Source: Dioscorea cayenensis subsp. rotundata
Lineage: Eukaryota; Streptophyta; Magnoliopsida; Dioscoreales; Dioscoreaceae
NCBI RefSeq assembly: GCF_009730915.1
Contig: NC_052474.1
Location: 2,887,501 to 2,951,500 of the forward strand
Direction: 5' to 3'
Length of the DNA: 64,000 nucleotides
Positions 29,945 to 63,884 of the stretch are shown here, in pieces. Numbering within the stretch: position 1 is the stretch's first letter; every line of letters begins with the position of its first letter. The translations under genes and the position numbers were made by a program. The notes under the pieces were generated by a model that ran no database searches, had not been told where the DNA came from, and saw only the letters and a list, made by a program, of their open reading frames with translations.

Positions 29945-30006
29945 TGCACACTGCTCTTTTGGCAATGAGAGATGAAGGTGGAGGTTGCGGAGGGGGGGAA
30001 TGGAGG

Positions 30007-30144: not shown

Positions 30145-30322
30145 ATTGAGAGGCTGTTGTTGTTGACCATGATGATGTTCTTAGCATAAGAAAAACATTT
30201 ACTAATGAATTCCAACTCAAGTGTTGTTTGTCATGTTACGCAATAGCTAGGATCGATGTATTTTTATTTATTATATATATATATATGAGTTTGTGTTTTG
30301 TTGGTAAATGAGATTTTGATAA

Positions 30323-34993: not shown

Positions 34994-37900
34994 CGCCCCC
35001 TCAAACTTGGCATCCTCTGGGTGACAAGTTTGTACCGTAGAAGCTGAAATCGTTGCTTGGATAAGCCTTTGGTAAAAATATCAGCAATTTGATCAATAGA
35101 TGGGACAAAGCGCACATGATGAGTACCACCAGCAACACGTTCTCTGATGAAGTGATAATCTAGCTCGATATGTTTGGTACGAGCATGAAAAACAGGATTA
35201 GTAGCCAAATACGTTGCACTAATATTGTCACAATAAAGGATAGTAGGGGTCTGCAAAGCAAAGCCAAGCTCACGCAGCAAGTGTTGAACCCAGATTGTAT
35301 CAGCACATGTTGTAGCAAGTGAGCGATATTCAGATTCAGTACTAGACTTGGAAACCGTTGGCTGCTTCTTGGCACTCCAAGAAACAAGGTTTGGTCCAAG
35401 ATAAACACAGAAACCGGTGGTAGATCGGCGAGTATCTGGACAACCGGCCCAATCTGCATCACAATAGGCATGCAATTGCAAAGGAGAAGAACTACGCTGA
35501 ATCTGAATACCAAAGTCAAGAGTACTCTTGAGATAACGTAAAATACGTTTAGCAGCAAGTAGATGTGGTTGGCGAGGTGTATGCATAAACTGTGCTGCAT
35601 GATGAACTGCATAGGAGATGTCTGGTCTAGTAAGAGTAAGATACTGGAGTGCGCCAATCATATGCCGGTATTCTGTGGGATCAGAGAGTAACACCCCAGA
35701 AGTGGATGAAAGTTGGGATTTTGTAGAGATAGGAGTAGAACATGGTTTGCAATCAACCATATTGGAACGACGCAATAAATCTAACGTATACTTACATTGA
35801 GAGAGATGAAGGCCTGCAGGAGTATAGGTAGCCTCAAGACCAAGAAAAAAATGCAATGGTCCTAAGTCCTTGATTTCAAATTCGATCCCAAGTTCTTGGA
35901 TAAAGGTAGTTATAAGAGAAGTGTTGTTGCCAGTAAGGATGATATCGTCAACATATAATAACAAGAGCATCATCTGAGCACCGTGACGAAATATAAACAA
36001 TGAGGGATCAGCCTGACTGCATTGAAAACCATAGTGAAGTAGAAAAGAACTAAACCGATGAAACCAAGCCCGTGGAGCTTGTTTAAGCCCGTAGATAGCA
36101 CGATGGAGTTTGCAAACATGTGAAGGACAGCGAGAATCAACGAAGCCCGGTGGTTGTTGCATGAAAACAGTTTCAGAGAGAATACCATGGAGGAATGCAT
36201 TTTTGACATCAAGCTGGCGAATCGACCAAGCACGAGAAATAGCAATGCTAAGCACAGTGCGAATGGTAACTGGTTTAATGACAGGGCTAAATGTGTCACC
36301 ATAATCGAGTCCAGGTTGTTGATGAAATCCCTTAGCCACAAGGCGGGCTTTGTAACGTTCGATAGAACCATCAGAGCAACATTTGATTTTAAACACCCAC
36401 TTGCAACCAACAATATTGCAGCCCTCTGGGGGAGGAACCAAAGTCCAAGTCTGATTTTTAAGAAGAGCATTAAACTCATCAGTCATCGCCGATCGCCACT
36501 CAGGAAATTTAACAGCAGTAGAAAAACAAGTGGGTTCTGATTGAGATGAAGATAAAATAGCAGCAAGTGCACTGGGAAGAGGATGCCGAGTGGTAAATAG
36601 ACTGGCGGGCACCTTGACTTTCCGGGTGCCGTCTTGCATTCTGGTAACCATAGAGTGGCTAGATTGGGTAATTGATGCAGGAACACTTACTGAATCAACA
36701 AGAGTAGAGTCATCACTATTTGGTGACAGAGTTATTAATGGACTGGAAATGTCCTTGTCCTGTGGTGCCTCCTGAATGGGGTGAGGGATGCCACTGTCCA
36801 GTGGTGGTGAGAGAGAAGGGGCACATCCGGTGATAGAAGTAATAGGTGGTGATCGCCGAGTATACACCTTAAGAATGCCAGATTGCCGCGGGTGCGTAGG
36901 AGGAATAGGGGGTGGAGCCGGAGGAGCGGTCGGCAAGCCATCAAGAAGGGCCAACACAGTGGAGTTGAAATCCTGTGATGATGGAGTAGTTGCACAGACT
37001 TGGAAAGGAGTCGTCGTACCCACAATAGGCCGATTATCAACCGGCCTAGAGCAAAGAGTAGCAGCCGTAAGAACTGGTATAAGAGCCCAGGTTGATGGCG
37101 GAGAGGAGGCATCTTGAGGTGGGCGACGTGAAGAAGAAACATTATAGGGAAAGGTTGTTTCATCGAACTGAACATGCCGCGAAGTATAGAGCCGTCCGGA
37201 GGATTTATCCAAGCATCTGTAGCCTTTACAGCGAGCGTCGAACCCTAGAAAAACACACTCAATTGATCTTGGATGAAGTTTGTTAGCAGCATACTGTCCC
37301 ATGAATGGGTAACAAGCACATCCAAAAATGCGTATGTTCGCATAGGTGGGTGTGGTGTGAAATAATAGTTGAAATGGAGACTGCCATTGAAGGACAACAG
37401 TAGGAAGCCGATTGATGAGATAGACTGCATGAAGAGCTGCTTCAACCCATAGGGAAAGGGGTAATGTTACAGTAGAAAGCAAGGTGCGTGTCATGTCAGC
37501 AATATGTCGGTGTTTGCGCTCAGCTCGCCCATTCTGCTCAGGTGTGTGGGGGCAAGAAAAACGTTGATGAATTCCTTTCCTAGCACACAGATCCGAAAAG
37601 GATTTGTTGACATACTCAGTACCACCATCGCTTTGTAATATTTTAGGAGAGGAAGAAAACTGGGTTTCAACAAGAGCAAGAAAATTTTGAAAATGATTGA
37701 ACACCTCTGATTTATGTCGCATGGGATAAATCCAAGAGTACCTTGAAAAGTCATCAGTGAAGAGAACATAATAACGATAACTAGTAGTAGAAGAGACTGG
37801 AGACATCCAAACATCATAATGAATTAAAGCAAAAGGCACAGAAGCTTTAGTCTCATTTGTTGAAAAGGGTGCTCGAGTTGATTTGCTCAAGACACAAGTT

Positions 37901-38277
37901 TTACATAATTCAGATTGCAACAAGATAGGGGAGGAACCCAAAAGATTGTTATTAGCTAATGTAGACAAGACACGCAAGGATGGATGGCCTAAGCGATGAT
38001 GCCAGAGGGTAGATGAGACTCTGGAGGTGGTAAGGGCCTGAGGAGAGGTGGTGATGGCCAAGGGAAAAAGGCCATGCTCACAGCGGCCCTGAAATAATGG
38101 AGATCCGGAATGTAAGTCATTAATAGAAAAAACCCAAGGATAAAAGGTAAAACTCACAGAGTTATCTTTGGTAAATTTGGCCACAGAGAGAAGGTTTTTG
38201 CGCATAGAAGGGATGTGCAGAACATTGGAAAGGTGAAAGGAGCCAGAAGAAGTAGGTAGAGAAATTGAACCTGTGTG
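34948..38277 (-). CDS. Copia pol region: integrase, reverse transcriptase, RNase H
   Basis: A long open frame continuing in the same frame as gag after a single TAG at 38278-38280. It shows the GAG-pre-integrase HHCC finger (HHRLGHPS ... CKTCVLSK), the integrase acidic triad ([23 protein letters not shown]), the reverse transcriptase YVDDIILTG box, and copia RNase H ([29 protein letters not shown]). No other stop or frameshift is present. The reading frame has no natural start of its own right after the TAG, so it would need readthrough or reversion to be made from the genomic RNA. It runs through the polypurine tract and ends within the 3' LTR. Confidence 0.93.
34994..35005 (-). other. Polypurine tract of the copia element
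   Basis: On the minus strand TTTGAGGGGGCG directly abuts the 3' LTR. This is the expected position and composition for the plus-strand priming tract. Confidence 0.8.
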
Positions 38278-39471
38278 CTATATAGGAAGAAACTCACCAT
38301 TACCAAGCATGACCTGATCAGATCCATCATATGCAGACTTAGGATTAAGGGAACGAGCATCGCCCGTCATGTGGTGAGTAGCGCCAGTATCAGGGTACCA
38401 GGTTGTATCAGGAATTTCAGAGAGTTGCATACCAGCAAAGGAATGGCTTAGATCAAACTCTGAAGTGGTGTGACGGCGATAACATGTAACAGCAGAGTGG
38501 CCGAGTTTATTACAAATTTGGCATTGAATTTTGGTAGAACCTTGTGTAGGATTGGCTCCCCGAGGAGGAGGACCCAAGATGCTAAGGTCAGGAGAGGGAC
38601 GAGCATACTTGTATTGATTAGAGTTGGGAAAACCACGTCCACGACCAACACGACCAGAACGAGCACCATGATTTCCACGACCACCACGCGTGCTATGACC
38701 CCGTGAAGAAGTAGTAGTAAAAAGAGCAGTAGGCGAAGCAATAGAGGGAGCATTAGCAAGATTAGTTTGAGTTTCAAAAGATAGGAGACGAGCACGGAAA
38801 TCAGAGAAGAGAGGAAGCGGGGGAAAGTTTAAAAGAGCGGTAACAAGCATGGCATAGTCAGGACCAAGACCGCGTAGAACAGAGGACACAAGATCATCAT
38901 TGGTAACCGGACAATTGATGGCTGCAAGAGAATCAGCAAGATGCTTGGCATTTTGTAGGTATTCAGATATGGTTTTAGTACCTTTGGAGATAGAAAGAAG
39001 TTGAAAGCGATAATGTGTGGCATTGGCTAGAGATTGTTGATTGTAATTTTGTTGAAGGCAATGCCAAATTTCTTGAGAGGAGGAAAGACCAACGACAGTG
39101 GAGAGTACAGATTCAGAGAGAGTAGCATTGAGAAGGGAAACAAGTAATTGGTCTATCTGAAACCAAGCCGCGTAGGCTGGATTGGGAATGACAGAGTGGG
39201 CATCGTCAGAGGAAAGATGAGGGAGAGGGGGAGACGAGGAACCGTCAATGAAACGCCACAAATTTTGGCTAATGAGAAATGGTTGAACTTGGCTTTTCCA
39301 AAGGAGATAATTGGTCTCAGTAAGTTTAATGGAGACAAAGTGAGAGATGTTGGGGATGGTGACGTGAGGAAGAAGAGAGGAGGATAGATTGTCGCCAGTG
39401 AGTGAAGTAGAGAGAATAGGAGCAGTCGTCGTTACTTGGGAGGAGGCTGTAGCTTTAGAGAAGTTGTCCAT
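38278..39471 (-). CDS. Copia gag plus start of protease, ending at premature TAG
   Basis: 397 codons from the ATG at 39471 to a TAG at 38278-38280. Features: the Gag domain (retrotrans_gag type, with LTETNYLLWKSQVQPFL and the WHCLQQNY region), a Gly/Arg-rich stretch, a CCHC zinc knuckle (CQICNKLGHSAVTC) and the protease active site WYPDTGATHHMTG. The stop falls about 35 residues after the protease DTGA, inside the protease domain and exactly in frame with the downstream integrase. It therefore looks like a single nonsense mutation rather than a normal gene boundary, because copia elements normally make one Gag-Pol polyprotein. Confidence 0.9.
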   Translation of the reverse strand: MDNFSKATASSQVTTTAPILSTSLTGDNLSSSLLPHVTIPNISHFVSIKLTETNYLLWKSQVQPFLISQNLWRFIDGSSSPPLPHLSSDDAHSVIPNPAYAAWFQIDQLLVSLLNATLSESVLSTVVGLSSSQEIWHCLQQNYNQQSLANATHYRFQLLSISKGTKTISEYLQNAKHLADSLAAINCPVTNDDLVSSVLRGLGPDYAMLVTALLNFPPLPLFSDFRARLLSFETQTNLANAPSIASPTALFTTTSSRGHSTRGGRGNHGARSGRVGRGRGFPNSNQYKYARPSPDLSILGPPPRGANPTQGSTKIQCQICNKLGHSAVTCYRRHTTSEFDLSHSFAGMQLSEIPDTTWYPDTGATHHMTGDARSLNPKSAYDGSDQVMLGNGEFLPI

Positions 39472-39531
39472 CACGAGGCCGAGAAAAAGACAAGGCAACA
39501 AGGAAGAGATGAAGCCTAGGATCAATGGTCG

Positions 39532-39541
39532 TCTGATACCA
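39532..39541 (-). other. Primer-binding site (initiator Met-tRNA)
   Basis: TGGTATCAGA on the minus strand starts directly after the 5' LTR (ACA|TGGTATCAGA). It is the standard copia PBS complementary to the 3' end of initiator methionine tRNA. Confidence 0.9.
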
Positions 39542-39755
39542 TGTAAAAATTGCTTTCTTGATTGAATTCTCATGTAGCTATGCATGACAATATATAATAC
39601 AGGATATTTGAATACAAGGAAACAGATCCTATAATTGGGAATGACCAAATCAAAGGAATGTTCTATAATTGGATTGATTTGCTGAATTTTGATTGATGCC
39701 CAAATCTTTTCAATCATTTCCATGAATTGTGGGAAATGATTCATTTGCTTTAACA
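39542..39755 (-). repeat. 5' LTR of the copia element
   Basis: 214 bp, identical by eye to 34780-34993, and followed by the primer-binding site. It should hold the element promoter. Confidence 0.95.
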
Positions 39756-39760
39756 ACCTA
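39756..39760. repeat. Target-site duplication ACCTA (right) of the copia element
   Basis: Second copy of ACCTA, matching 34775-34779 on the other side of the element. Confidence 0.92.
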
Positions 39761-42700
39761 TATAGCATATCGTCATAATTATGGGAAAACATACAAAATA
39801 AGATATATTCCTATAAATTATTCTATACATGTATACTCAAAAAATACAAAATTCTTTGTTGTTTAAATATACCCTGACTGCCATACGACATCTATCATAA
39901 ACCAACTTAATCAACCCTTGCATAGTTGCATGCACGTATAATATATAAATGGCGCATGTATATACATACGTCATACGTGCATTGCATGCATTGTGAACTC
40001 TGATTACTGTTACTTCATGATTAATTTGTAGCATTGAAGTTTAATAAAGTTAAGTTTGTGAATACACACAACACACTGTGTGCTTGGAGGCTCAGGCCGG
40101 CGCGGCTTCACGTTTGGTGTGCCATTGAGCCAGTGGGCGGCGCCGACTAGTTTACCATTTGAGTTGGGTTTGGTAATTGGTTGGTATCCTACCATGCATG
40201 CATGCATGCATGCCTGCCGGTTTTTCTTTATTTCAAACCATCATCAGAGTATGTGCATGCAAATCAAAATCAAAATCAACTTTTACAACTTAAAACCTTT
40301 ATCTTGTCTAGCGGTTTTTTTCTTCTTCTTCTTAGCTTAGGCTTTCTTTGCCAAAAAAATAAAATAAAATAAAATAAAATAAAATAAATCAAAATAAACT
40401 TTTACAGCTAAAAGCTAGTTTATGTGACAATTCATGATTGTCAAGAAGTTTTGACAATTTTCTCGTGTGAGAACATTCGAATTTATTCTGAATTTATGAT
40501 TATTGTTAGTAATATATTTATGTGGTGCATTAGCTGTCATATTATTCTAGATATTATCTTAGCTAAATGGGCCCGATTTAATTAATGCTTAGCTTTTGGT
40601 TGGTTACCTAGATATCTCAATTATCAATTCTGCGAGTCTTGAAATTGTAACTTTAATACCATGTGATGTTGATGTATTTTTGTGCTAAAAAACTCTAATT
40701 TGCTTTTTTTTTTTTTAAAAAAAATATTAAGTTATTGCAATAGTCATTAAAAGAAAAGCACACAAATAGAACATGATTAAAAATAAAAAAAGTAAAAAGA
40801 AATTTATTAAACAAAATATGTCATTTAGTGAACATGTTAGACTTCCAACAATATTTGTCCTCCATTGGTTCCATGTAGAACCAAAAAGGAACAGCCAAAG
40901 CTTGGAATGTTTATATATATATATATTCCTAGTAGCTTCTGTTGATGTTCTTTTTTATTTATTTTGCAAAATAAACAAATGAAAGATGGAAGTTGTCTCT
41001 CTGGCTAGCAATTTCTAACTAAGTGGATGATATGATGCCATCAATTAAGCTTGTCTTATGAACTGAAAGACAACTAAACAAATGCATGATCACCTTCATA
41101 ATCTAATGCTAATGGAGCAATTAAGTCCATGTCACATCAATGAAATAAAGATTATACACACACACAAAGGAGTATGAGAAATTAAAAGATTTGGATTTCC
41201 TTTTGGAGATCATTCCTTAGCTGTCCACAAGAGAGTACTTTGAAGGAGTACTTGCCATCCAGCTATACAATCTCTTGTGGGTTTGCAATGTGGCCAATAA
41301 CTTATATAATCAATGTTTGTTTCATTGGTTTTTATTAAGTGCTTTTATTAATGGCAGGACAACATGTATCTTTGGATGAGCTTTCAATTAAATTTCCAAG
41401 GCCTGTTGGTAAGGGGCTGGAATTAGCACCCCATTGGAGCCTTGCATTTCAGAATGAGACATGAAACCCATCTATTTATTATCATTATTATCATCATCAT
41501 CATTATCGTTATTATTATATGGTCCCTCAAAACCTATGTGACTTGTTTTATTGTTTATATAATTCATCATCAAATTATATTTTTCATTGGTGTGTCCGCG
41601 CAATTCCCATCTTTCAAGTATCTGATTCGCAGTGTTTTTTTGTTCATAAAAAAATTTATTTTAGTGATGATGTCATGAATGATCTTTGCTCACAGATATT
41701 TGTATGTTGATCACAGTTATCATTAGAAAAATTATGTTTTTGAGTTTTCTTCTGTGTATGATCACTATCAAAATTTTATTTACTTTTAAAATAAAAATTT
41801 ATAAAAATATAATAGTAATGGTGCTTAATGAAAGTAAGACAAAGTGAAAAGAGTCTCATCTAGAAGAACATATGATGATACAAGATGGTGTTTTCATGCC
41901 TATTAGGTTTGTTACATGACAAGCAGACTAAGATAGGCCAATTAATGGCTATAATCTATGTTCCACCTCACCCTGCTACCCATCTTATACACACCCAATT
42001 CAGGCCTAGTACAATGATTTATCAAACTCTTTGTCATGCATGATTCTTCCATCAATCAATCATAAATAAATATATATAGATATATAGATACATTGATATA
42101 TATTTGTTAGTCAATTTCCATCCATCAATCAATCATACATTCAGAAAATAATCACAAGATAGAATTTATCTTTCTATCAATTGTCAACTTAAATTTAAAC
42201 TTAAAATATAATTAGTGAACCATTTTTATTTATACATATGACTTGTGAAAGTGGAGTACATGGTGCTTTCCACCTTTTCATGCTTTACAGTTAAGATGTC
42301 CCTGTTTTAAACCAAGTGTTTGGGTCCAAGAGTTTGTCTTAATCTAAGATTTTCTTCTTCTTTTTTTTAAATAAATAAACAAATTAGTGGATAATTGGTT
42401 TATTATTGATATTATCATTCTGATGATAAACCTCCCTTAGTTGTTTGTTGCCAAAAGTAATTAATTTGTTTTAGATGGATGATTGTTTGAGATGGATTTG
42501 ATTAGATTTTGTTTAGACTTTCATTCACATCCATGCTCTTGACTTGATAACCAATCTCATGACTAGTTTAGTTTTATAAGTAATTATAATTAATTCTATG
42601 ATAATTGACTTTCCTTCTCACTTGTACATTTCATCAATCATGTGTAACTATTGTCTACTGTATTGAGGCCAAATATATATATATAATATTTTGTAAACAA

Positions 42701-48754: not shown

Positions 48755-51700
48755 TCATTTCACCTTTCTCCTGAGCACCTCCGCCACAGACAGAGCAGTA
48801 CAGTAAGCAATGGCCTGAACAGTAACCATGGGATTCACACCAAGCGCCGTTGGGAAGACACTGGTATCAGCCACATACAGTCCCTGAACTTCCCAAGTCT
48901 CTCCCTTTGGGTCCACCGCTGAAGTCTCCGGCCTCACACCCATCCTACAACTTCCCATTTGGTGCGCCGAGCACACTGGCGTCCTCAGACCCGTCACCCT
49001 TTTCCTTCCCATCCTCCTCACAAACCTCTCAAACTCATGAGAGCTTGCCGTCCTCAAATCCAGCTTCTCTCCCTCTTTATGGACCGTCCCTATTTCCGTC
49101 GCCCCGGCCGCTGCTATTATCCTCATCATCTTCTCCACCCCTTTCTTCAAATTCCTCTCATCATGACCCATCCATCCTATACCTGATGGATCCTGACTCA
49201 TCCACCTCTCCTTCCCCTCTATCCCTCGCCAACGTAAACAGATGTGCTGTCCTTGCAAACCTGGTCATCCTCCATTTGAAGTCCTCCCCTGACAGCCACG
49301 GCGTCACCACCGAGAACAACCCCGGGTGCAAAGACGGTGTCTGTATGATCGCCCCGTACCCATCCCGCACCACAGTATGCATAGCCGTCATGATCGCCCC
49401 TTCATAACTGTTCTTATCCACGTCCCATCTCGCCTCTTTCTCCGGGAAGTACCCCCACCCCATCACCACTGGATGCAAGTGCAAGTGCTTCCCTATATTC
49501 TTGTTCCTCAACCCACTCTTCTTCAGCAACACCGGAGTGTTCAATGCCCCACACGCCACCACCGTCACCTTGGCCTCCACCATACACTTCTCCTTCTCCC
49601 CTGACCACCCATTCTCGAACTCAAACACCACTCCTGTTGCCACCTTCTTCTCCCTTCCCCTGTTCTCGTAGATCACTCTTATGGCCTTGCTCCCTGGGAT
49701 TATAACTCCATTCCCAGATTCAACCATGTCCACCAGCCATGTCTCTAACGTCCCCTTTTTCCTACCATCCTTGCAACCAAAACAGCACCACCCACAGTGG
49801 TGATCGGAAGGTGCGTTTCTCGGTATATTCTTTACTGGATATCCGAGTTCCTTGCACCCTCGTCGGAGTACGGCATTGTTTAGGCTCTCTTCCTCTACGT
49901 CCGGGTGCACTCCCATGCGCTTACACACCACATCCAGGGCGTGCTCGTAGGCCTCACTGCCGAACAGCTCAAGCCCAAGCTTCTCCCGCCACTCACCCAT
50001 CACTTTATCCGGAGTTCGGATTGACGCCGACCAGTTGATGGCTGAACCACCTCCTACGGTGGAACCGGCGAGGATTGTGACCCCCATGTCGGCCGTAGCG
50101 AGGAGGCCATTCCTCTCATACATCTGGTCCAGCGAAGGACCTTCTATGAGACTGAGCTTGTTCCTGGCATGATAGTGACCTTTCTCGAGGACAACGACCT
50201 TGTAGCCGGCTTGAGCTAGGACACCGGCGACGACTCCTCCGCCGGAGCCGGAGCCGACGACCACGACGTCACAGCGGATGGTTGGGAGTGGGTTGGGCCG
50301 GGATGTGATGGAAAGCCTGGCTTGGGCCAAAGCTTTGGAAAGCGTCTCTATTGGGCTGTCTAAGTGGACTAAAGTTCTGTGTAGTGGACCTAGCCCATCA
50401 ACTTGGGCTTGCTCGCTTTCATTGCTTTGTTTGACCCGGTCAACGTGATCTGGATCGGGCCCACAGTAACCAATCGCCTTCCAAGTAGGATTCTCGTTGT
50501 TCTCATCCAGCTGTTACACCATTCAATGATATTTACTATATAATGAAATACACTCCCAAGATCATAAAACAAACAAAATAAATAAACCTGCCAACCTGCA
50601 TTTCATATATCTATATATAATTACTAGAAAATTTATCATCATCAACTCAAAGTAATATATATATACACAGGAGAATTCATCAATTACGGATGTTCTATAC
50701 ATTCATAGAACATCCGTAGTTAAAGATAAAAATAAAGATAAAAAGAGATATTTGTAAATAGATATATAAATAGTATCATAAATAGTATTTAAAATCATGT
50801 CCTTTATGTCCTTATATCCAAAACAGGTAATTGAGTTAGTTTTTATTTTATGTTGAAATAACTATGCATCCCACTTTGTGTTATATAACGGTTTATAATT
50901 CTGTTTATTCTAATTTTACAGCTGATAACACTGTTTACAATACTGTTTAATAATATTGTGTAAATTTACTATTGCATTCAATGTTTATAAAGATGAATAA
51001 TTTACAATTATTAGATTTAGATCCAATAGTTAAAAAATGATTGAATGCTAGACATCCCTAGAATTCAATTCTATATATATATATATATATGTGTGCGCGC
51101 GCGCGCAAGACGAATGGAAAATTTTGTGGTGACTTTACTGAGATGATAACCTTTGAAAGTAGGCCAGATTATATATATGTGTCTAAATTACAACGACGAC
51201 TTTCAATTGACCAGGTTTTAATTAAGTTGAGGGTCCGATATTTAAGTCATTGTCTTTTGCCATGGTGTCGTGTTGCTGCTTTCATAGTTCATGGATTTCA
51301 AGTGGGAGTGTTTGTCGGTAATCTGGAAGTCATCTTTCTGTGTATAAGAAATAAATGTCACAGATAAACTTAGCCCTCAAACTTGATTGCATATCTCAAA
51401 ATTTCATGAGCCTCTTGTCATAAACAATCTCTGATTAATAACAAGCTTGTTTTTCCTATTACTGTCAATAAGATTTTATTTAGACTATTTATTAATGTCT
51501 TGTTTTTATTTTTAGTAACTGAAAAAAGTGAATTGACCCTTTGGTTTGCCAGCAAACTCAAACTTCTATCTTAAGTGTCTTTCACGCATTTTCTAGTTGC
51601 CAAGATAATCTATATTTATATTTATGTATATATAACTACCAATCTATAATATCATAATTTTTTATTTTATTTTTTTTAAATAAAATGGATAAATCACAAA

Positions 51701-52834: not shown

Positions 52835-54295
52835 GAAATAGAAATTAATTAAGATAGTGTTTTTTATGGATGGTGTAAATATGAGAGTTTTTGACTGAAT
52901 GGCAATGAGCAATGAGCAATGAGCAATGAGCAAAGGTTGGTGTGATGACTGCCAGAATATTAATGAGCTCTAACGCTCCATCCAACGCTTTGTCCTTTCT
53001 TCTACTCTCTGATCAATTGACTAGTTAGGTTTTGAGAGATTTGAAATCCATCTCTATTATATGGTTTCCTTTTAATTTGTTTGTGTACGCATGGTTCATG
53101 CACATGATTAGTTACAATTCATTTTTCCTGAAAAATGTCAAGTAAAAAGAATATATACAACTACAATGCAATAGATAGAACAAGTCGAGGAAGTATTGCT
53201 TCTTTGCTTACGTTGAAATAAACAACTAATTACGATAGATGAATCATTATTATTATTATTATTATTATTTTTAACAATGTATTATTATTGTTATTATTAT
53301 TTGAATAAATGTGAACAAACCACGTATCTTAACTAAACCAAATAATTATTAGTATGTGTATTAATTTTTGTAGTTAGCCATTATTATTTTGTGAAATTAA
53401 ATTCATTTCATATCCACTCAATCATTTTTTAAATAAAAATAAATTAAATTTATGTGGAGCGGAATTTAGTTTTATTTATAGATATCAATTATTGGTATTT
53501 TGTGATTGTCATTGAAACATTTAAATCGTTGATAGGGGAGGGACACCTAAAATTATAAACGTTAGTATTAATATTTTTTGCAATGAATAACTATTAATAT
53601 TGATTTCATTATCATGTTAGATGATAATTCATGTCACAGAAACTTAATTTGTCCGATATTAAAACTTGAAGTTTATATATAAGAAATTGATGGTAGTTAG
53701 GTTTTCTTTTTTTAATAAATTTTGACAAGGGCCGGTAGGCAGGTACAAAGGGGCCGGCGCACTGTCATATCTTCATTTCAAATAAATATAAAACTAAATA
53801 AATTGAAAAATCCATCAATCGAAAATTTATTATGGTGTGAAATCATGCACACATACATTTATATATACACACACGTATATATATACATGTGCATATATAT
53901 ATTAAAGAATGCATTAAAGATCAGAGACAAAGCCAACTTGGCAATGAGAAGCAAATCACACCAACCTTTCATTTTGATATTCCCAACACTGGCATGCAAA
54001 TAGTGATCATGTGCTATAATAAAACCATATATCTAAAATAATGTCACAGTACTGAGTACTTTTATTCCACTTTAAAACAACATATAAGGCTGCATGAATT
54101 CCAACACGGAGAGAGTCTCAGTATCAACACCGTCAAAGAAGCTCTATTTCACCATCACAAACCAATCACACACACACACTATATATACACACACACACAC
54201 ATGTCTATCTGACACATTCTTCAATTTTGGTCCACTGAATTCACTTCACAGGGACCAGTCATAGTATAATTCAATTATTGATCACTTTCTATATA
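52835..54295. other. Intergenic stretch upstream of the fatty alcohol oxidase gene
   Basis: No gene seen. A heptamer tandem repeat (AATGAGC, about five copies, 52903-52932) lies about 210-235 bp upstream of the FAO start. Further left there is a (TTA)n tract near 53246-53269, and (AC)n/(TA)n tracts near 53870-53900 and 54170-54200. Confidence 0.65.
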
Positions 54296-54304
54296 TTTAA
54301 TTTA
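54296..54304. repeat. 9-bp target-site duplication of the MULE (left)
   Basis: TTTAATTTA flanks the element on the left and is repeated exactly at 63876-63884. A 9-bp duplication is diagnostic for Mutator-like elements; the word is AT-rich, so the call rests on combination with the terminal inverted repeats. Confidence 0.78.
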
Positions 54305-54366
54305 GTAAAAATTGCTAAAAAAACCCTCTAAATTTGCAATATTACCAAAAACACCCCGTTAGTTTT
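54305..54366 (+). repeat. Left terminal inverted repeat of the MULE
   Basis: Compared without gaps with the reverse complement of 63814-63875, the outer 12 bases match at 9 positions (GTAAAAATTGCT against GGGAAAATTACT). Bases 25-62 match at 28 of 38 positions, including ACCAAAAACACCCC-like and TTAGTTTT blocks. The 12 bases between are not conserved. Confidence 0.75.
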
Positions 54367-55224
54367 GTTATCACATGACCTCTTTTTAAAGCTCATATTT
54401 TAAACACGAAAGCATGTAGCGGATGTCGATGGAGTGATTTTTCAAATTTTATGAGCGAAAAAATGCTTGCGTGGGGAGTCGTGCGTGCCGATTTTTTCGG
54501 TATGAGGAGGAAGTGGGGGTTCAGTGAGGGTAATCCCACGAGGCAATTCTTGGGCAGTTTACTTGTTTTTCTCGACTCGCGTCTTGACTTTTCCATTTCA
54601 GTGATCTCCGAAGTTGTCTCTCAGTATGCATCTACTGTAATTCTGACTTTTCCTTTTCAGGTATCTCGAAGGAGAAGTCCCACGCAAGTAGTTGGCGTTT
54701 CATCGGTTTCATGATCTAAAAGTATTGAGTATGGTTTTATGTTAACTATTCATTCTGAAAGAAAGATTTTTCGGTTTTGTTTTTGTGCTCTGTTTTTGTT
54801 GGAAGATATTGAAGTGCTGAGGGATTTCTCATTTGAGGGTTTTTGTTAGTCTGCGAGGCGATTTCTCGGCTAGGGTATTGTTTTGTTTTGCATTTTAGAT
54901 GCATATACACTATCGAAAATAGTTTTTCGATTGTTATGATTTATGTAATAATATTTATAATGTACATTTCACTTTCGTTTGATATGGTTGCGGTTCTGAA
55001 ATGAGGGTTTTACGTTTAAGAAATGAGATATTCTGGTTTAAAATTTTTGTTGTCTCTGTTTAATAAACTAGGTCTCTGTTTAACAATTGATATCTCTGTT
55101 TAGGCGGAAGGTTCTGGTTTAAAACCTTATATTTCCGCTTAAACATTTTGTGAATCTGCGTGTTGAATGTGTTGTTATTGTCTGAGGGCTTGTGGCTATG
55201 GCGGTCGAGCCTAGTTAATGGGCG

Positions 55225-58200
55225 ATGCTATTTGACAGCGTAGTGGAGACCTTAGGTGAATTGAAAGATAACATGACCCCTCGACGTCTGGGAGATCATC
55301 AGAAGGACACCGTTTCTGACATTCGTTGGTGGAAGCCATATACCCGAGAGAGGGCCCTTATTAATTCTCATTGCAAAAGTACGATGGCGACGCTAATAGT
55401 CGAGGGATCGGGAAAGCACTGCTGAGTTTTCGAGGCCTCAAGATGTGGCCCTCGTTCTTGAGTACTGCGTTATGATGGCGGCCGATGCGTGTTTAAGAAG
55501 AATAAAACCCAGCTCTGACGTTCGAGGGATGTATTTATAAAAACCTACGAGAGCAGCAGAGACTCCAGTCAAGGCGCTCTTGTGCGACTTGTTCGACGAG
55601 GGGGAAGAAGAAAATTTTTGTCAAACTCGATGGTGTACCTCAGTGGTGCAATCCTCTTCCCAAATATATCATGCTCGGTTCGAGGCGGATGCGTTGATTA
55701 TGTCGATGATCTACAGCCGTGGGCGATCTGCGTAGGCGCGGGCGGCGCACAAGTGGCTTATGGAGGACATTCCATGGCAGTTTGCTCGAGTCGCGAGATG
55801 AGATCTTGCAGGGGAAGACCACGACAGGGGTATATTAGAGGGTTGCTCGGTCGTGCTTACACGTACGGTTTCTAGGTGGCCGGAGCAGGGAAAAGAAAAG
55901 TCTGTTTCGTCGAGATCCCAAGAATCTTTGTCTACTGGTGAAAGTAGTTCTGGGAAGCAATGACGAGTGAAAACCAGTTGTCATCGCTCGAGAAGGAAGA
56001 GGTAATAAATCGTGAGACGATGTTTAACGAAGTCTTTAATGTTTAAACATATTATTCTAGCGTTTAACTTTATTATTCTGAGTTTAAAATTTGTTCATAA
56101 AGGTTTAAATATTTTGTTCTCCGTTTAAAATATATTCTATAATGTTTAAATATATAAAAACTCCGTTTAAATATAGTTTTTTATAGTTTTAAAAAGTGAA
56201 TGATTTCATTGAAAATTGTTTGGTTTCATATGTTGAGTTCTTGAAAGTGTGGTTCAGAGCGAATCTTTGAAGAAGAAATATTTATTGAGAGGCCAATCGG
56301 CGGATGGATGTTATTGCTCAAAACCACTTGCTCGAAGGCGGGGATAAGAGGCGGCCCTACATTACTCTGGCCTCAGCGCCCGTTCTCCTACTTCCGACCC
56401 TGCAGCGCGCGCGCATTCCTCAGCCGAGAGGCCCTCCCCTACCCACGCCAGTTGCGACAACCCCCTACCCGCGATGATGGCGGTCCCCGATTGTGGCAGC
56501 CCTCCGTGAGTGGCGGCCCTAGCGAAGCGACATTAGGCGAAGATGCCACTACGACTCTTATGCGCGTGCGGAATATTGTTGGCCAGAGGTTTCCTCGGCA
56601 GTCGCTCGTCGTGTTGAGAGCCTTGGAAGGATGTTCGCGATCATTGCGCCCGTTCCTCGAAAAATGAAGCACCCAAAGGTGACGAGGCGTCGAAATTTGA
56701 TGACGACGACGTCATCGAGGTGAGCCGTTTCAAGGCGGCCACATTCGAAGAGACTTGCGAAAAAGAGGAGAACAATACTTGCCTCTGTCTCCACGGTGAT
56801 GATGAAGACAATAGCAACACCATCGGTGATCATCTGTTGTTAGTCTGATCACCGTTGATGACATGGCCATGCGGTGGAGGACATCATAGATGATGTGGCC
56901 GTTGCCGCGATTGAGAAGATCGTTTACTCTCTTGTTAGCGAAATCCCTGACCACAATGGAGCCAGCTGTAGGAGTGCGGCATCAAAGATGAACACAATCA
57001 CTAAAGAACAAGAACAAGCTAAGGGTGTGTCTCCTGTTGATGTTGTTGCCAGTGGCACTGATTGGAAGATCGTTGAATGCATTGCCGTGGCCAAAGCGAT
57101 GCTTTGCGTCAGTAGGACAGCAATCAGCAACAGAAGAAGCATGTAAGGGTATGTCTGCGGTTGATGTTGTCGTCGATCCTGATCGTTGTCGGGACACGAT
57201 CCCACAACAACAACAACCATGTAAGGATGTGTGCTGCGGTTGATCTTTGTCGTCGTCGTCCCAGCGTGAAGCCGGACACAATCCCACAGACAACAACCAT
57301 GTAAGGATGTGTCTGCGGTTGATCGTCGCCCGTCCCCAGTCGAAGGAGATCTTTGCGGTCTTTGAACACCGTCAAGGCTCAACGACAATCCCCTATGAAG
57401 ATCCCGACCGAGGAACGAGAGAGATGATCAAGGTCAATCAACAATTGGACGAGACGGATCGGAAAGTCTTTATTCCGAAGAAGAAAAATTGGGTTGGCCA
57501 ATCACGTCTTAACAAATACGAGCAGGAGTTGATGAGGCTCTTCCTCAACTGCCGTATGGACAGGTAAGTTTAAAGTTTTTATGATAGTGTTTAAATGTTT
57601 ATATATTATCATTTAATTTATCTATTTAATGTTTAATTATTTATAATATCATTTGAAAATTGATAATATCATTTAAAGACTTACAATATGGTCTAATTAT
57701 ATATGTTATTATTTAACCTCGACCTTTGTGTCGTGTGGAAGAATAGCCATTTGTCGGCACTACAGCGGACAAATTATACACTACTTGAGGGGAAGGAGAT
57801 GGTCCGAGATAATGTGATGGGCGCTTTCGTATGTATAATACAAAAGTCGGTGAGCAAAGTGCCGTATCCTTCGGCAGCGCCTCCATCACATGACACTGGC
57901 TTGTTTATGTCAGCGAGGAAGGCACATGAAACTACTATGGCTATGATCCAGAGATCTGGTGCTGTGACTTGCATGAAGTTCAAAGTGTCATCCTCCGATA
58001 ATCATGAATGGCCACTTCTATGTCCTCGTCCTTGACAATGATAAACAAGAATACATGCATTATTCTTCACGTACGGCGAAGTGCGATAAAGGCCAGCTGG
58101 ACATAGTAAGTTCTTTAATAAATTATGTCCGATTAATAGTGTTTGGTATTTAATCGGTATTCTAATCTCAACTTGCGTATTTCGACGGAATCTATTACGA

Positions 58201-58391
58201 CATTTTGTGTCGATATGGAGTTCGATGAGTCGGCGACCTCAAAGTACCCACTAGTGCACGACATGGAAACCCCACGCCAAAAACAAGGAAGTGTCGATTG
58301 CGCCGTCTATGTCATGCGGTTTATCGAGCGAGTACTTTGGGGTGAAAAAGCTACGACTACCGATGACAGGGCGTTCCTTACACGAGATTAA
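55225..58391 (+). pseudogene. Decayed Ulp1-protease-like (Kaonashi ULP type) gene
   Basis: Coding fragments in several frames. Near 55610-55760 there is a degenerate block (YLSGAILFP ... VDYVDDLQPW) resembling the N-terminal domain of transposon-borne ULP genes (DUF1985-like; low confidence). 57345-57567 encodes a linker ending MDR before a spacer. 57719-57960 encodes WKNSHLSALQ ... VMGAFVCIIQKS. 57985-58110, in another frame, encodes PIIMNGHFYVLVLDNDK with the expected catalytic His. 58160-58391 encodes RQKQGSVDCAVYVMRFIE with the Gln and nucleophile Cys. C48 proteases cleave SUMO-like conjugates. The catalytic Asp position is not evident (HYSS where a DS pair is usual), and frame changes occur between blocks. 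AT-rich spacers rich in GTTTAAA, possibly introns, separate the fragments. Broken, probably inactive. Confidence 0.72.
57011..57325 (+). repeat. Coding minisatellite inside the Ulp1-like gene
   Basis: Imperfect copies of a 75-82 bp unit start near 57011, 57135, 57211 and 57293. The conserved core is CATGTAAGG(A/G)T(A/G)TGTCTGCGG TTGAT, followed in two copies by a GACACGATCCCACA-like end. In one frame the units encode CKGMSAVDVV / CKDV-type repeats with poly-Gln between. Small indels between copies break the frame. Confidence 0.7.
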
Positions 58392-58865
58392 AGTATGTTT
58401 CCGCATATTTAAGGAGGGAGGCGGGACGTGCGTGAGAAATAAGGGGGTCGTCGAGGCGGGTTAAATTTTGTTTTTCGAAGAGCAGGGACTTGTATATGTC
58501 AATGTCAATTTTGTTTTCGAATGTAAACCAAGACAAATTCAATTCATTGTTTTTGTTTTCGAAGAACATGACTTCTATATGTCAATGTAAATTTTGTTTG
58601 TTTTTCAATTGTAAAAGCGAGTTAAATTTCATTCGGTTTCATTTCATTGTTTAATTCTGATTAATCATTGTTTACATTTCAGTTTAATTGTTTAAATTTA
58701 CCATCTCTAGTTTAAATATCGGGTTTAAAATATTTAAAATTACAGTTTCTCTATTTAAATTAACACTGTCTCTGTTTAAATAAATGATAACACTGTAAAG
58801 AATAAGAGTTTAAATATGAAAAGTTGCCACTCAATTCAGATTGTTTCTCTTTAGAAGTCGACTTA

Positions 58866-60853
58866 TTTACGATGCCTAGTCGTGACAGTTTCATTGCAAG
58901 ATCTCGATTGTGTCCGGATCCATGGCGGCGGTACTGATGTAACTTCAGCGGACATCAAGCGCTGGCGACTCGATCCTCTTTTCCTCTGGGGCGCGTCTGG
59001 CTGCCTTCTCGTCAGCGGTGTCGCAAAGCGAAGCTCACGATTTTTAAATGCGAAGGTTTGTCGTTAGTCGGGTATGGGGAATATAGCTTCCTTATCGCCC
59101 GATTTGTAATTATCGACGGTGAAGTAAAGCGCTAATAAATTGATGAGCGTTGGTGTGCATGCGCATTATTGCCGTATAGCGTGTTTGTAAGGGATACCGT
59201 AAACTTGCCCTTGCCGGCGTGAACAAGTTACGATGGCGAGATCTCTGAGTTGTTGCTGATTTGGATCGATCGCTCGTAACGATCATCGACACAACGACCA
59301 ACGCGAAGATTTCGGCTATCCTCGACAATTATCTCTAACCCGAATGTATGTCCGAGCATAAAGTGAGGTCTCCCGTTTGTTACACTGCTCACGCCCCTTG
59401 CATAACATGCTGTCTTCGACTTGAACGACGACAAATAAGGTTAAACAAAGGCGATGATGGTTAAACAGATTGGTAAACTTGTTTTAAGCGAGTATGGTAA
59501 ATATTTAAGCGATTAAATTAATATTTAAAAGTCGAGGGCAATTTTAATTAAACAAATATGGAAATGTTTAAAAGGGTAACACTAAATGTTAAGTGTAAAT
59601 CAACATTCGCGAGACCTTATGGAGTCGACCATTTTCAGCATCGCGGTAAATGACGAGCTTCTTTGATCCAAGCATTGAGCGACTCCGCGACCTTTGAATA
59701 CATCTCACCCCAACGATCACGTGCGAACGAGATAATCGACCATGTGCCATATCCGATTTATTAATCAACCGGTGATGGCCTTGGGTAATGTGGCTGCGGT
59801 TCATTCAGCGGTGTCATTGAATTCTTTAGGCGTGGATGCCCTACCGAATCGCGAAAAGCATATAAACCGAGCACTCCTCCCTCAATGCCTTCCCAAGTCC
59901 GACATTGGCTTTCATAAAATTAGCCTCCAAATATCGAAGACAGTATGCATGTGGCGAAGAAGGGAAGACTCTCGCAATTGTGTTCACAAGGCCCTCACGA
60001 AAGTAATTATCTCATTATAACTTGGATATGAACCAAGTCTAATTGGTGTCGGTCTCATTGTCGACTATACCGAAGGCGACGTGGAAAAAACCATTGTTTC
60101 CATCTTTCCTGCTGGCACCCAAGAGTGTAGCCCCGATACTTTCCAAGGAGGTGAGTACCATCAAGAAAGCTATGACGACCGCAAGCCCTCTTGAATCCCA
60201 CAATACACCTGTTTGAAAGAAAAGAATGCACATTTAAAACGATCACCATCTCTTTCCACGATCGCAACGCTGCCGGGGTTTGTTTCAACCACCTTATCTA
60301 CATACCAAAGCAACAAATCGTAGCTGGAGATGTCACTGCCGTCGAGGACCACCCGGGCATGCTCTTTTCCCAATCAAACCTGCTTGTATGGTATGTGGAC
60401 ACCATGTTCCCGGAACATGTCCTTCTGAATGTCGATGGCCTTGTACAAGGGTCGGTCCTTGAGCTTTTGAATCACTCATGCGTTTACCCATTTTTTGGAC
60501 GCTTTCGCATTTGACGTCGATCCTATTCCACCACCGCAAGTGTGTGACGGGTTGATTGTCTTGATTTTGAAAGTATTTTTATTATACTCTTTTGATGCAT
60601 GAAAGCGCCAATGACAACCATCGACAGCGGATTCCACAGTCACCCGATGTTTTTCGTTCTTTATGAATTTGAAGTCAAAATTCCGTTTGATTGCAAAATT
60701 TTGAAGTACGTCCCTGAAATATTCAACACCTTCAAAACATTGTCCGATATCCAACGACAGCACTTCAGAATGATCTGACGAGGAAGGAAGACATCCTATA
60801 CCGTCAGGGTCACCATGGGGTTGAACGGGAGCCCTCGCAGAATCTGAATTCAT
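58866..60853 (-). pseudogene. Decayed mudrA-type MULE transposase
   Basis: Read from 60853 leftward. 60853-60480: N-terminal Mutator DNA-binding domain (GVEYFRDVLQNFAIKRNFDF ... GCHWRFHASKE ... HTCGGG). 60475-60180: linker (QKLKDRPLYKAIDIQKDMF, EHARVVLDGSDISSYDLL). 60170-60010: catalytic domain start (FLDGTHLLGKYRGYTL, then VAFGIVDNETDTN). 60000-59830: ARVFPSSPHAYCLRYLEANF. About 59750-59650: RWGEMYSKVAESLNAWIKEARHLP. About 59220-59060: SWIM-type region (GIPYKHA where GIPCKHA is expected, then EAIFPIPD). About 59000-58866: basic tail. TGA codons at 60476-60478 and about 60374-60376, a TAG near 60029 and several frameshifts interrupt it. The order of domains matches MURA exactly, so identification is firm and inactivity is clear. 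Confidence 0.85.
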
Positions 60854-61570
60854 GCCAACACTTCAGTTAAATGAAAAGATCAATATGTTATCATGAGAAT
60901 AGGCTGCATTTAAGTGATAAAGTAAATATTTAAACGTTAAAATTAAATAGTTAAAGCAAAGTGAACAATTAACTTAAATGAATAGTATAAGATTTTTAAC
61001 CCAGATGGTGACATACTTAATCAATAATGAACCTATACAATTGGATCAAATAAAAGAGAAAGAACTTCTAACGAGTAAAACTCGTTTTTCATTAGAGATT
61101 CGACAGATGGCACGTTATCTCGTCTCGACAACAAGACCAACTACTGCTAGCATTTGAAGATCGAGTCGCACGACACATCCATTGGAAGTCAACATCGTTT
61201 TCTATTGGACAAAACCGCTTTTATATCCATCGTATGTGATAAACTTCACTCTGACAGGGAAACTTGAGACCCCGATTGCTCACATATCTCGACTAACACC
61301 AACTCCCAAGAAGTCGAGTAGTGAACATTAGCACTCTTCCCTCCTGTTGTATCTAGCAATACCACAAAAACTCTCCATAATATATCGGCCAAAAACCAAA
61401 TCATACAAACCAAATGAAAAGAAGAACGAAAAGAAGAAGAAAAAGAAGAAGATGTAAAGAACAAACAATGAATCGAAAAGCGAGTGCGATTGTACGCATA
61501 GAGGTTAGACTAGGCGTGATGTGATTGGGCGGTATTTTTCCTCCATCCCAAGGGCAAAAAAAGGAAATAT
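60853..61570. repeat. Subterminal block of the MULE, internal copy
   Basis: Direct-repeat partner of 63029-63735, offset about 2.17 kb. Shared landmarks include TGCCAACACTT, GAAAAGATC(A/G)ATAT, GATTCGACA, TCTCGACAACAAGA, GAAGAT.GAGT.GCAC, AAATCAAC-like and AACTTCAC blocks, the AGAAGAAGATGTAA-like block, and GTGATTTG...AAGGGCAAAAA. Its left edge coincides with the putative start codon of the transposase, so it corresponds to the transposase leader and promoter region. Confidence 0.8.
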
Positions 61571-61639
61571 ATGTCACCTGTCATGAGGAAGCCATATTAT
61601 CATCAGCTCGAATAAAAGTTCTCACTCTTTATTATGAGT

Positions 61640-62120
61640 CTCGCTTTAAAGCGTCGAGTTTTTTATGTTTAAACCGATACATATAGTGTTTAAAATAACG
61701 GTTAATTGTTTAAATAAATTCTATATCATTTAAATAATATGTAAATCGTTTAAATATAGTGATTTAACTGTTTTAAAATATATGTTATTGTTTAAATTAA
61801 ATGTTTTTCACTCGACATCAGCGTTGAAGATGGGTACCTCCTGGGTCACTGTTTAAACATCTTTATGTATTTGCTTAAATACCGTTGTCATTGTTTAAAG
61901 AGTAAATCGATTATTGTTTAACTTTTTGTTTTGTTTACAATGCCCTTTTTTATTTCTCAAATTGTTTTTACTATATCTCTGTTTAAATATCACAAGTTAT
62001 CACAAGTTGACACTCAAATAAGTTTGTCTGTTTAAAAAATTTAAACATTTACAATGGAGAATCTGATTAAATATCAGAAGTTCACACTCAAATAAGCTTG
62101 TTTCATTTAAAATAAAACAT
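61640..62120 (+). repeat. AT-rich spacer built of GTTTAAA words (best example)
   Basis: Many copies of GTTTAAA or close variants at irregular 15-40 bp spacing. Similar spacers occur at about 55060-55150, 56020-56200, 57565-57720 and 58640-58830 in the same orientation, and at 59430-59590, 60890-60990, 62380-62440 and 63080-63230 as TTTAAAC/TTAAAC. The word is rare in this density outside the element. Confidence 0.75.
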
Positions 62121-62445
62121 TTACAACATTTACAACGTCTTCTCGGACCTTGGACACTCGCGAGTCGACCCTCGTTCGTTTATTAAGATTTCGGTTTGAC
62201 TCACCAAGCATCTGTACATTCGAATGCTTACGGCGGTTGCATAACATGCGCATCAACTTAAACCTGCACAACGTAGAACTCAACACATCAAAAAAGGTTA
62301 AGCAAACACATTCATAAAAACGTCTATTAATCAATGTGTCATGGTCTGACTTAAGCGAAGATCCTGAGAGTTAAACACATAAAGTAATATTTGTACACTA
62401 ACGAAAGGTTCTTAAACGGTAAGAACAATTCTCAAGTGATAAATA

Positions 62446-62735
62446 TCAACTCCGTCTTAAAGGATGTTTCATGATCTTCCTCCTCTAGAGAATCCTCCGT
62501 AATCACGCAATAAGTGAAAAACTTTCTTTTTCTTACCCAAGTCGAAATGCCCGGCTTAATTGCTTGCCCGTCGTCCATCTACTGGAGAATCCTCCGTATT
62601 CGAGGCGATTATGCGGGAATTTCACTGGGCAAGAAAGAATAGTTTAACTTATGGCGTGATTACTGGCGATGATTCTCAAGATGAGGAGGATCATGAGACA
62701 TCACTTTAAGATAGAGTTGATCTTGAATTTTCGAT
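62446..62735. repeat. Large imperfect palindrome inside the MULE
   Basis: The left arm from 62446 (ATCAACTCCGTCTTAAAGGA, then TCATGATCTTCCTCCTC, GAGAATCCTCC, GTAATCACGC, ATAAGT) matches the reverse complement of the right arm ending near 62725 (ATCAACTCTATCTTAAAGTG, TCATGATCCTCCTCATC, GAGAATCATC, GTAATCACGC, ATAAGT). Arms are about 110-120 bp and the centre is about 45 bp near 62590, where GGAGAATCCTCCGTA recurs. Confidence 0.8.
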
Positions 62736-63028
62736 CCGACTTCGATGAATATCATACACAAGAAGCGAGATGAGGAGGAGGAGGATGAGGGACGGCGAGG
62801 GAGTGGTTGTCCATGGGAAGGGTTCTTCCTTGTCATTTATGGTGTAAAAGTCCATCAGCGGGTTGACGCTTCAGTATCCGAGAAAAAGTGAAACGCATAA
62901 AGTGGACCGAGATTGATCGATCACAACGAGCGGGTATTCGGATATTTATATTCTTGCTGCATAAGAATTAATGTCAGCTCGTTAATTCTTGACTGCACGG
63001 ATACTATAACTTCTGCCATCTTCCACCT

Positions 63029-63735
63029 TGCCAACACTTGATTCAGACGAAAAGATCGATATTTTTACTGTGAGACTTTGAGAATTTTCACGTTAATATG
63101 AATAGCTAAACATGTAAAGATAAATTTAAACGGAGACGACAATTATTAAACAAATTTGTAATATATTTAAACAGATAATAGCAAAGAGTTAAACAGTATT
63201 TAAAATATACAACTAGATAACCTTAAACGAGAAGAACTACCATAAGCGAGGAAGAACTTTACAACGAAATGAACTCGCTTTTCGGTGAGGATTCGACAAT
63301 GGCACATCGTCTGTCTCGACAACAAGATCGACTACGACTCATTTTGAAGATGGAGTGCACTTGACCAATCCGATGGAAATCAACTTCATTTTCTGTTGGA
63401 GAAATCGATTTATATATTTCGGGTATGACAAACTTCACCCAGACTCGTTTCCTGAAACAGATTTACATCTATCATTACCACAAAAACCCTTCATAATAAA
63501 CACCCGCACAATGGTCAAAATGATAGCAACGAAGAGATTCTCACCGTATTACGAAACCGGCAGAAACTGAAGTCGAACAAACCAAATGAGGAGAAATGAG
63601 GAGAAGAACAAGATGTAATGCAACTTCTATGCATTGTCTATCAGAAACCAAGCAAAAAGCCCTTGAAAAGGTTGGACATGATGTGATTTGATGCTTTTTT
63701 TCCCACCATTTTCAAGGGCAAAAATGGGATTTCAC
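63029..63735. repeat. Subterminal block of the MULE, terminal copy
   Basis: Second copy of the block at 60853-61570 in the same orientation, lying directly inside the right terminal inverted repeat. It has no transposase gene behind it; instead the palindromic segment and unrelated sequence follow. Confidence 0.8.
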
Positions 63736-63813
63736 AACATGGACCCATTTGAAGTGAATGGTAGTGGGTAAAAGGGAAGTTAAACACAAACGGAAGGGTT
63801 GTCCAGGGTGTGT

Positions 63814-63875
63814 AAAAGTAAGAGGGAGTTTTTGGGAAATTTTGAAAATTACGATTGGTGAACAGTAATTTTCCC
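63814..63875 (-). repeat. Right terminal inverted repeat of the MULE
   Basis: Inverted partner of 54305-54366, reading inward GGGAAAATTACT ... CCCAAAAACTCCCTC ... TTACTTTT on the minus strand. Confidence 0.75.
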
Positions 63876-63884
63876 TTTAATTTA
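63876..63884. repeat. 9-bp target-site duplication of the MULE (right)
   Basis: Exact second copy of TTTAATTTA directly after the right terminal inverted repeat, matching 54296-54304. Confidence 0.78.

Follow-up and report, generated by a model that had tools for sequence, protein, structure and literature searches.

The window analysed here is a 64,000-nucleotide stretch of contig NC_052474.1 (positions 2,887,501 to 2,951,500) of white yam, Dioscorea cayenensis subsp. rotundata. Its positions 54305-63875 are a complete but decayed copy of a Mutator-like element (MULE) of a white yam family. Two convergent genes were found in this copy, one for a MURA-type transposase and the other for a partner protein with a Ulp1-like end, and its non-coding DNA carries regularly spaced arrays of the short word GTTTAA. 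The first-pass annotation had proposed a Kaonashi-like MULE of full length, in which a Ulp1-type gene converges on the transposase gene, and that much is supported. The copy is pseudogenic, and the structure that was then regarded as peculiar to it is not. The same annotation had overlooked the breaks in both genes, the phased motif arrays as such, and the DUF1985 domain of the partner gene, which is seen in a sister copy. The limits of the element are as follows.

54305..63875, no strand: whole MULE copy, from its target-site duplications and the coincident ends of the sister copies L040 and L042
54296..54304, no strand: left target-site duplication TTTAATTTA, from the sequence, with other 9-bp duplications in the sister copies
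63876..63884, no strand: right target-site duplication TTTAATTTA, from the sequence

A 9-mer shared by chance between two random 30-bp stretches of the window was seen in 0.4% of trials. The imperfect terminal inverted repeats reported earlier are present, 9 of the 12 outermost positions matching between the termini by letter count. When the two 120-bp ends were aligned with gaps, their score was reached by 2 of 1000 composition shuffles, and also by 28 out of 2000 pairs of stretches drawn at random from the window, so that the inverted repeats are weak and the ends by themselves constitute modest evidence. The boundaries are settled by two full sister copies of the same genome, L040 (C2:1823853-1833852) and L042 (C19:22856823-22866822), which stop at the same points. 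L040 is 87% identical to the window over 57193-63875 and ∼80% over 54309-57244, and L042 is 77-80% identical. With the window flanks included, the two alignments span 54309-63876 and 54295-63881, respectively. The 1 kb of window flank on each side had no match in either locus, and the sequence outside the element amounts to 157 + 457 bp in the L040 locus and 311 + 294 bp in the L042 locus. Within this flank of 157-457 bp per side, neither of the two full copies runs past the ends; similarity continuing beyond them was what the first-pass annotation had named as speaking against its boundaries. The target-site duplication is TTATAATTA in L040 and AAGATTTAA in L042; a 9-bp duplication is thus found in all three full family copies, with a different 9-mer in each. 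The identical 9-mers on its two sides and the coincident ends of the sister copies bear out the element at 54305-63875.

The transposase relatives of the element are mostly from Dioscorea. In a 24-row tree, built from the window together with 23 of its 57 relatives and no VANDAL protein, the window copy falls within a clade of all 10 Dioscorea rows and 2 others (support 100/100), where it adjoins P0002, P0008, P0012 and P0014 (support 86/83). P0002 is a transposase of D. cayenensis subsp. rotundata whose residues 1-331 match the genome at 100%. No relatives were found in viral contigs or in a further genome-contig collection, and an Rfam scan returned 0 families.

Two broken convergent genes

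The recognizable parts of the two genes are listed below.

59644..60883, minus strand: transposase main exon with the DBD_Tnp_Mut and MULE domains, broken (Pfam and tblastn)
58948..59338, minus strand: transposase exon of the SWIM region, broken (tblastn of yam transposases)
about 61124-61296, minus strand: transposase exon 1, inside the inner duplicated block (mapped from 2745-2915 of L040)
62185..62265, minus strand: displaced duplicate of a transposase fragment (weak tblastn, best E 0.026)
55240..56000, plus strand: partner-gene exon matching the DUF1985 exon of L040, approximate and broken (alignment to 7998-9539 of L040)
57140..57326, plus strand: ∼80-bp tandem repeat in the variable central part of the partner gene, ∼26 residues per unit
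57720..58391, plus strand: fragmented Ulp1-like (C48) part of the partner gene (PF02902 in the open reading frame (ORF) 58140-58391)

As is usual for the MULE class, the transposase is of the MURA type. DBD_Tnp_Mut was detected in one ORF of the window (E 1.8e-19) and the MULE domain with E 1.7e-3 in the raw frame and 3.6e-6 when read through, and tblastn of yam transposases matched the SWIM region at 58948-59279. Pfam gave no match to SWIM in the window; in L040 all three domains are above the cut-off. Thus, the earlier claim that the MURA domains lie in order on one strand holds for DBD and MULE by profiles and for SWIM by tblastn only, in a gene that is broken: the matches to P0001 contain 11 stops and several frame changes. 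Sequencing error was rejected as the cause of these breaks. The same window holds long and open ORFs of 797 and 1085 residues, and we therefore read the element as decayed rather than badly sequenced; several sister copies without a stop in the transposase main exon also disfavour such an error.

Since searches with the DUF1985/C48 gene of the window returned no protein relatives at E <= 1e-3, the partner gene was identified through the sister copies. In L040, DUF1985 scores 36.5 bits against a cut-off of 35.1 (at 7945-8505), and an exon of the same copy also resembles the plant mobile domain (PMD; 31.2 bits, under the cut-off of 34.9). The DUF1985-like exon of L042 is 73% identical to that of L040, as are, at 63-64%, two pieces from L041, a copy of a sister family. 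The C48 domain of L041 is above the cut-off (20.9 against 20.7 bits). The middles of the partner genes differ, with units of ∼26 residues in the window family and Pro/Ser-rich repeats in L041; both are variable regions with tandem peptide repeats, as in the VANC proteins of Arabidopsis. The C48-like gene announced earlier does lie opposite and convergent to the transposase and has a Ulp1-type region, in a broken gene whose C48 match in the window is below the cut-off. The count of two genes comes from ORF lists and Pfam only, with no dedicated search for a third.

The Ulp1-like domain may not be an active protease, because Ser replaces the catalytic Asp of SENP1 in both families. In the Protein Data Bank, the C48 letters of the window had 0 matches and L041 only weak ones, to SENP1 and ChlaDub2 (best E 0.13). 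In the weak alignment of L041 with SENP1 (E 0.13), the catalytic His is retained and Ser stands where the catalytic triad has its Asp. Ser is found at the same position in the window (58005-58060) and in L040, the Ulp1-like part lying at 5905-6342 of L040 and 5984-6418 of L041.

Phased GTTTAA arrays

Seven arrays of GTTTAA are distributed along the element.

54990..55160, plus strand: array A1, phased, upstream part of the DUF1985/C48 gene
56010..56200, plus strand: array A2, phased, in an intron
57560..57720, plus strand: array A3, phased, in an intron
58640..58830, plus strand: array A4, between the convergent 3' ends
59430..59600, minus strand: array A5, in a transposase intron
61650..62130, plus strand: A7, the largest array, located upstream of the transposase
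63080..63240, minus strand: array A8

A candidate A6 (60900-61010), with two sites only, was dropped. Counted in either orientation, GTTTAA occurs 55 times in the 9.6-kb element and 52 times in the 54.3 kb of window 1-54304; same-strand pairs 19-23 bp apart number 19 in the element versus 0 in window 1-54304. The 500 dinucleotide shuffles gave a mean of 0.03 pairs and a maximum of 1, and shuffling the non-coding DNA only left the excess in place (54 sites versus 7.7 expected, and 19 pairs versus 0.03). The best period is 20.5 bp. Among consecutive same-strand gaps of up to 120 bp, those that deviate from a multiple of 20.5 bp by at most 2 bp are 25 of 36 in the window copy, 37 of 47 in L040 and 30 of 34 in L042, for a uniform expectation of 19%. 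When one mismatch was allowed, 36 of 54 gaps measured 18-23 bp. Neighbouring sites 6-70 bp apart have the same orientation in 31 of 37 cases.

These sites avoid the coding sequence: 54 of the 55 lie outside the provisional exons (an outer copy of transposase exon 1, described below, being counted as coding), and the same is true, with approximate exons, for 65 of 67 GTTTAA sites in L040 and 26 of 28 GCTTAA sites in L041. Few sites are located in the terminal ∼400 bp of either side. Dense arrays of one orientation in non-coding DNA are also what VANC targets display, and we are nearly certain that this anatomy (phase, orientation and non-coding placement) is real. In a survey of 6-mers, the element has 19 pairs of GTTTAA and 34 of the overlapping TTTAAA; when window 1-47855 was divided into five equal stretches, every 6-mer outside simple repeats stayed at 7 pairs or fewer in each lag band. 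The shuffles and this survey reject AT-richness alone as the origin of the arrays.

The arrays could act through DNA or RNA shape, either as phased AT-rich words for bending or nucleosome placement or as U-rich intron splicing signals. The AT-rich motif, the mostly intronic position of the arrays and the step of two helical turns all agree with this explanation. We nevertheless hold it improbable, given that A4 lies between convergent genes, that A7 is opposite to the transposase strand, that no other 6-mer behaves in this way in the five stretches of the first 47.9 kb of the window, and that a sister family keeps the step with a one-base change to GCTTAA that neither bending nor splicing needs.

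Another possibility is slippage of tandem repeats, of which the arrays would be neutral remnants. Tandem Repeats Finder detects weak 20-21 bp repeats in some arrays, A3 and A4 retain some lag identity outside the exact motif, and VANC targets, too, are considered in PMC5735166 to arise through tandem repeat birth. However, the spacers of adjacent units are hardly more alike (36% identity, 19 pairs) than those of distant units (33%, 1318 pairs), so that the arrays are not plain tandem repeats. Moreover, between L040 and L042, the columns that hold the motif in the window are 96.0% identical (286/298), against 84.9% (674/794) for spacers within 10 bp (Fisher's test, p 7e-8) and 90.5% (3818/4219) for coding columns (p 8e-4), other non-coding columns reaching 89.4% (3134/3507); these figures compare motif and spacer columns without matching the type of mutation. 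The conservation and the spacer comparison make slippage very improbable. The 54 non-coding sites of the window are exact in L040 for 46 (85%) and in L042 for 32 (59%). The corresponding values are 61.6% and 37.6% for control hexamers with an equal number of G/C (n = 1069), and 72.1% and 30.0% for control hexamers within 16 bp of a site.

Sister families and a candidate self-recognition system

To survey other copies, the 30 loci that best match P0002 were taken with 1.5 kb on each side of the match. A first set of 19 window-like copies (63-73% to P0002) contains 571 GTTTAA, compared with 84 in shuffles, and 165 GTTTAA pairs at 18-23 bp, compared with 0.6; each of the 19 has at least 2 pairs, and no phased GCTTAA pairs were present in any of them. 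The other 11 copies, P0002-like (77-100% to P0002), contain 181 GCTTAA (26 in shuffles) and 69 GCTTAA pairs (0.0 in shuffles), with at least 2 pairs in 10 of 11; the lone exception, L020, has one. Window-like copies also hold 53 ATTTAA pairs and 15 GGTTAA pairs, the latter all in one copy. Among MULEs of neither kind, the eight best PF10551 matches have 0 GTTTAA pairs, 0 GCTTAA pairs and 2 ATTTAA pairs. Thus, as for VANC targets, related families have different motifs, GTTTAA and GCTTAA. The GCTTAA sister family is represented by L010-L017, L019, L020, L025 and L041, and has a related DUF1985/C48 gene with a different, Pro/Ser-rich middle.

The system closest to this arrangement is that of the Arabidopsis VANDAL elements. 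According to PMC5735166, VANC21 binds YAGTATTAY, and its sites in VANDAL21 are dense and of one orientation, occupying introns, the DNA between genes and the non-coding termini; VANC6 targets bear motifs other than those of VANC21 targets; and VANCs combine DUF1985, DUF287 and variable parts with peptide repeats. The terminal inverted repeats of VANDALs are described as degenerate (PMC10398659). The yam element resembles VANDAL21 (Hiun) and VANDAL6 as a MULE with a DUF1985 protein, a variable repeat-bearing region and degenerate inverted repeats, and likewise shows short motifs, dense and of one orientation, in its introns, between its genes and upstream of them, with each related family using another motif. 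It differs from them in its motifs (YAGTATTAY and AGTTGTCC/AGTTGTAC in Arabidopsis, GTTTAA(A) and GCTTAA in yam), in its monocot host, and in having a Ulp1-like end and no DUF287 that we could find. Sasaki et al. 2022 (EMBO J) reportedly found the code to lie in the sequence, the density and the helical periodicity of the motifs.

From the gene order, the DUF1985 of L040, the phased non-coding arrays, their conservation and the use of one main motif per family, we conclude that a VANC-like self-recognition system, probably serving anti-silencing, is the likely meaning of these features in a monocot. The observations themselves are the order of the genes, the DUF1985 match of a sister copy, the phase, orientation, placement and conservation of the arrays, and the family-specific motif. 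Phased arrays together with DUF1985 point to such a system and not merely to a captured protease. The family would encode, besides its transposase, a convergent protein composed of DUF1985, a variable repeat region and a Ulp1-like end. This DUF1985 protein would bind the GTTTAA(A) motifs of its own family, located in introns, the intergenic gap and upstream regions. Motifs of the same orientation every ∼20.5 bp, or two helical turns, would be presented on one face of the DNA. Binding would keep the element's own copies from silencing, as VANC does for VANDAL, presumably with a loss of DNA methylation, and the sister family would use GCTTAA with the step unchanged.

The arrays might instead be binding sites of the transposase itself, serving transposition or autoregulation. 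Spm and Ac transposases bind subterminal repeats. The yam transposase has its own DNA-binding domain, it differs between the two families just as the partner protein does, and A7 and A8 are toward the transposase end. We consider this explanation unlikely, since the arrays occur throughout the element, introns and intergenic gap included, with few sites in the terminal ∼400 bp, and since the array binder in Arabidopsis is VANC (PMC5735166).

Several observations weigh against a VANC-like system. The window's own broken gene gives no Pfam match to DUF1985, and its C48 match (PF02902) reaches 18.2 bits, under the cut-off of 20.7 (ORF 58140-58391). The C48 of L040 is likewise sub-cut-off, at 12.1 bits in the ORF and 19.5 with two exons joined by hand, as is the DUF1985 of L041 (18.5 bits), and the ORF tested in L042 has no domain match, DUF1985 included. 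DUF287 was not found in the partner protein by profile searches of the window, L040, L041 and L042. Finally, the copies share descent, so that their counts are not independent trials, and the P0002-like copies also hold 8 GTTTAA, 8 GATTAA and 13 ATTTAA pairs. The yam families show all the features tested except DUF287, with two genes found versus three in Kaonashi (KI) elements. We do not class them as VANDAL elements, DUF287 not having been found and the transposase tree containing no VANDAL protein.

ULP1-bearing MULEs are also reportedly described by van Leeuwen in 2007. In KI-MULEs, the gene with the ULP domain is read in the direction opposite to that of mudrA (PMC2528002); the yam genes are on opposite strands in the window and in its copies, and the inverted repeats are weak or absent in KI as they are weak here. 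As far as the accessible accounts go, KI elements differ in being known from eudicots and in having three genes, whereas the yam element has two genes found and Ser in place of the Ulp1 triad Asp. The ULP1-bearing MULEs of melon, rice and grapevine (PMC2528002) likewise have the domain on a MULE, rice being also a monocot, and phased motif arrays are not mentioned in the accessible parts of these accounts. The accessible text on the Group 47 MULE-Monocots of Dupeyron 2019 (PMC6446971) describes monocot MULEs most of which have a plant mobile domain, sometimes antisense; it does not name arrays or anti-silencing for the group, and the yam counterpart is the sub-cut-off PMD in an L040 exon. A 2026 review (PMC13317346) has KIU-bearing Vandals acting on motifs of related copies and dates the acquisition of the Ulp1 domain to around the divergence of monocots and eudicots. 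We found no description of phased motif arrays in a monocot MULE in the literature searched, most subscription papers lying outside that search; a Ulp1-bearing MULE was already known from rice.

A broader interpretation, which we advance tentatively, is that each of the yam MULE families has a private anti-silencing code that is specific in sequence, in a lineage other than the eudicots. Each DUF1985/Ulp1-like protein might read its own word of 6-7 bases (GTTTAAA or GCTTAA) in a two-turn repeat, with a one-base switch between families and a Ulp1 part that, lacking the catalytic Asp, might serve as a binding or scaffold part. If this is true, the private-code system predates the monocot-eudicot split or arose twice. 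In the literature consulted, sequence-specific anti-silencing by transposons is described from Arabidopsis and, to judge from the title of one paper, from eudicots. The yam families would allow a test of how protein-DNA codes diverge, how old they are and what role helical spacing has in them. The one-base motif switch between sister families and the clear helical phase make this large monocot family a useful test case, and it may provide new parts for the targeted removal of DNA methylation.

Internal duplication and neighbouring genes

The transposase side of the element contains a duplicated block and a palindrome.

60853..61565, no strand: inner copy of the duplicated block, holding transposase exon 1
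63029..63729, no strand: outer duplicated block, where a further copy of exon 1 lies at 63343-63447
62442..62724, no strand: 283-bp palindrome, a long hairpin

Self-alignment and folding confirmed the duplicated subterminal block and the large palindrome of the first-pass annotation. As L040 and L042 carry both, they are family features rather than a peculiarity of the window copy. The blocks 60853-61565 and 63029-63729 are direct copies (476/660 identical). Two further pairs, 58644-58870 with 61888-62124 (158/215 identical, lying in arrays) and 59386-59595 with 62225-62438 (135/202 identical), scored above all 300 block shuffles. Two other arrays, 56059-56228 and 61650-61810, likewise beat all 300 shuffles, and the first of these pairs could therefore reflect array likeness alone. 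Taken together, the region of ∼61.65-63.73 kb, palindrome included, has the appearance of a second copy of 58.64-61.57 kb with an internal deletion.

The outer exon-1 copy (63343-63447) was rejected as the working exon on the fit of L040 to P0003, where the inner copy (2745-2915 of L040) gives E 2e-17 and the outer one (586-717) E 7e-7. Given this better fit of the inner copy, it is the outer copy that appears to be supernumerary. The palindrome has 72% identity and a predicted hairpin of -134.5 kcal/mol (z -14). It also lies upstream of the transposase gene in L040 (1298-1577) and L042 (1400-1675), and might give rise to double-stranded RNA or represent a nested foldback element.

Elsewhere in the window, the open 797-residue ORF at 3494-5887 has a weak match to yam transposases at 4172-4681, and we take it to resemble a FAR1-related gene, that is, a domesticated MULE. 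Two long ORFs of 1085 and 504 residues at 34948-39792 presumably resemble a copia-type retrotransposon. The ORF at 29543-30220 appears to us similar to the start of a CYP707A-type P450, and that at 49161-50330 is presumably akin to a long-chain alcohol oxidase.

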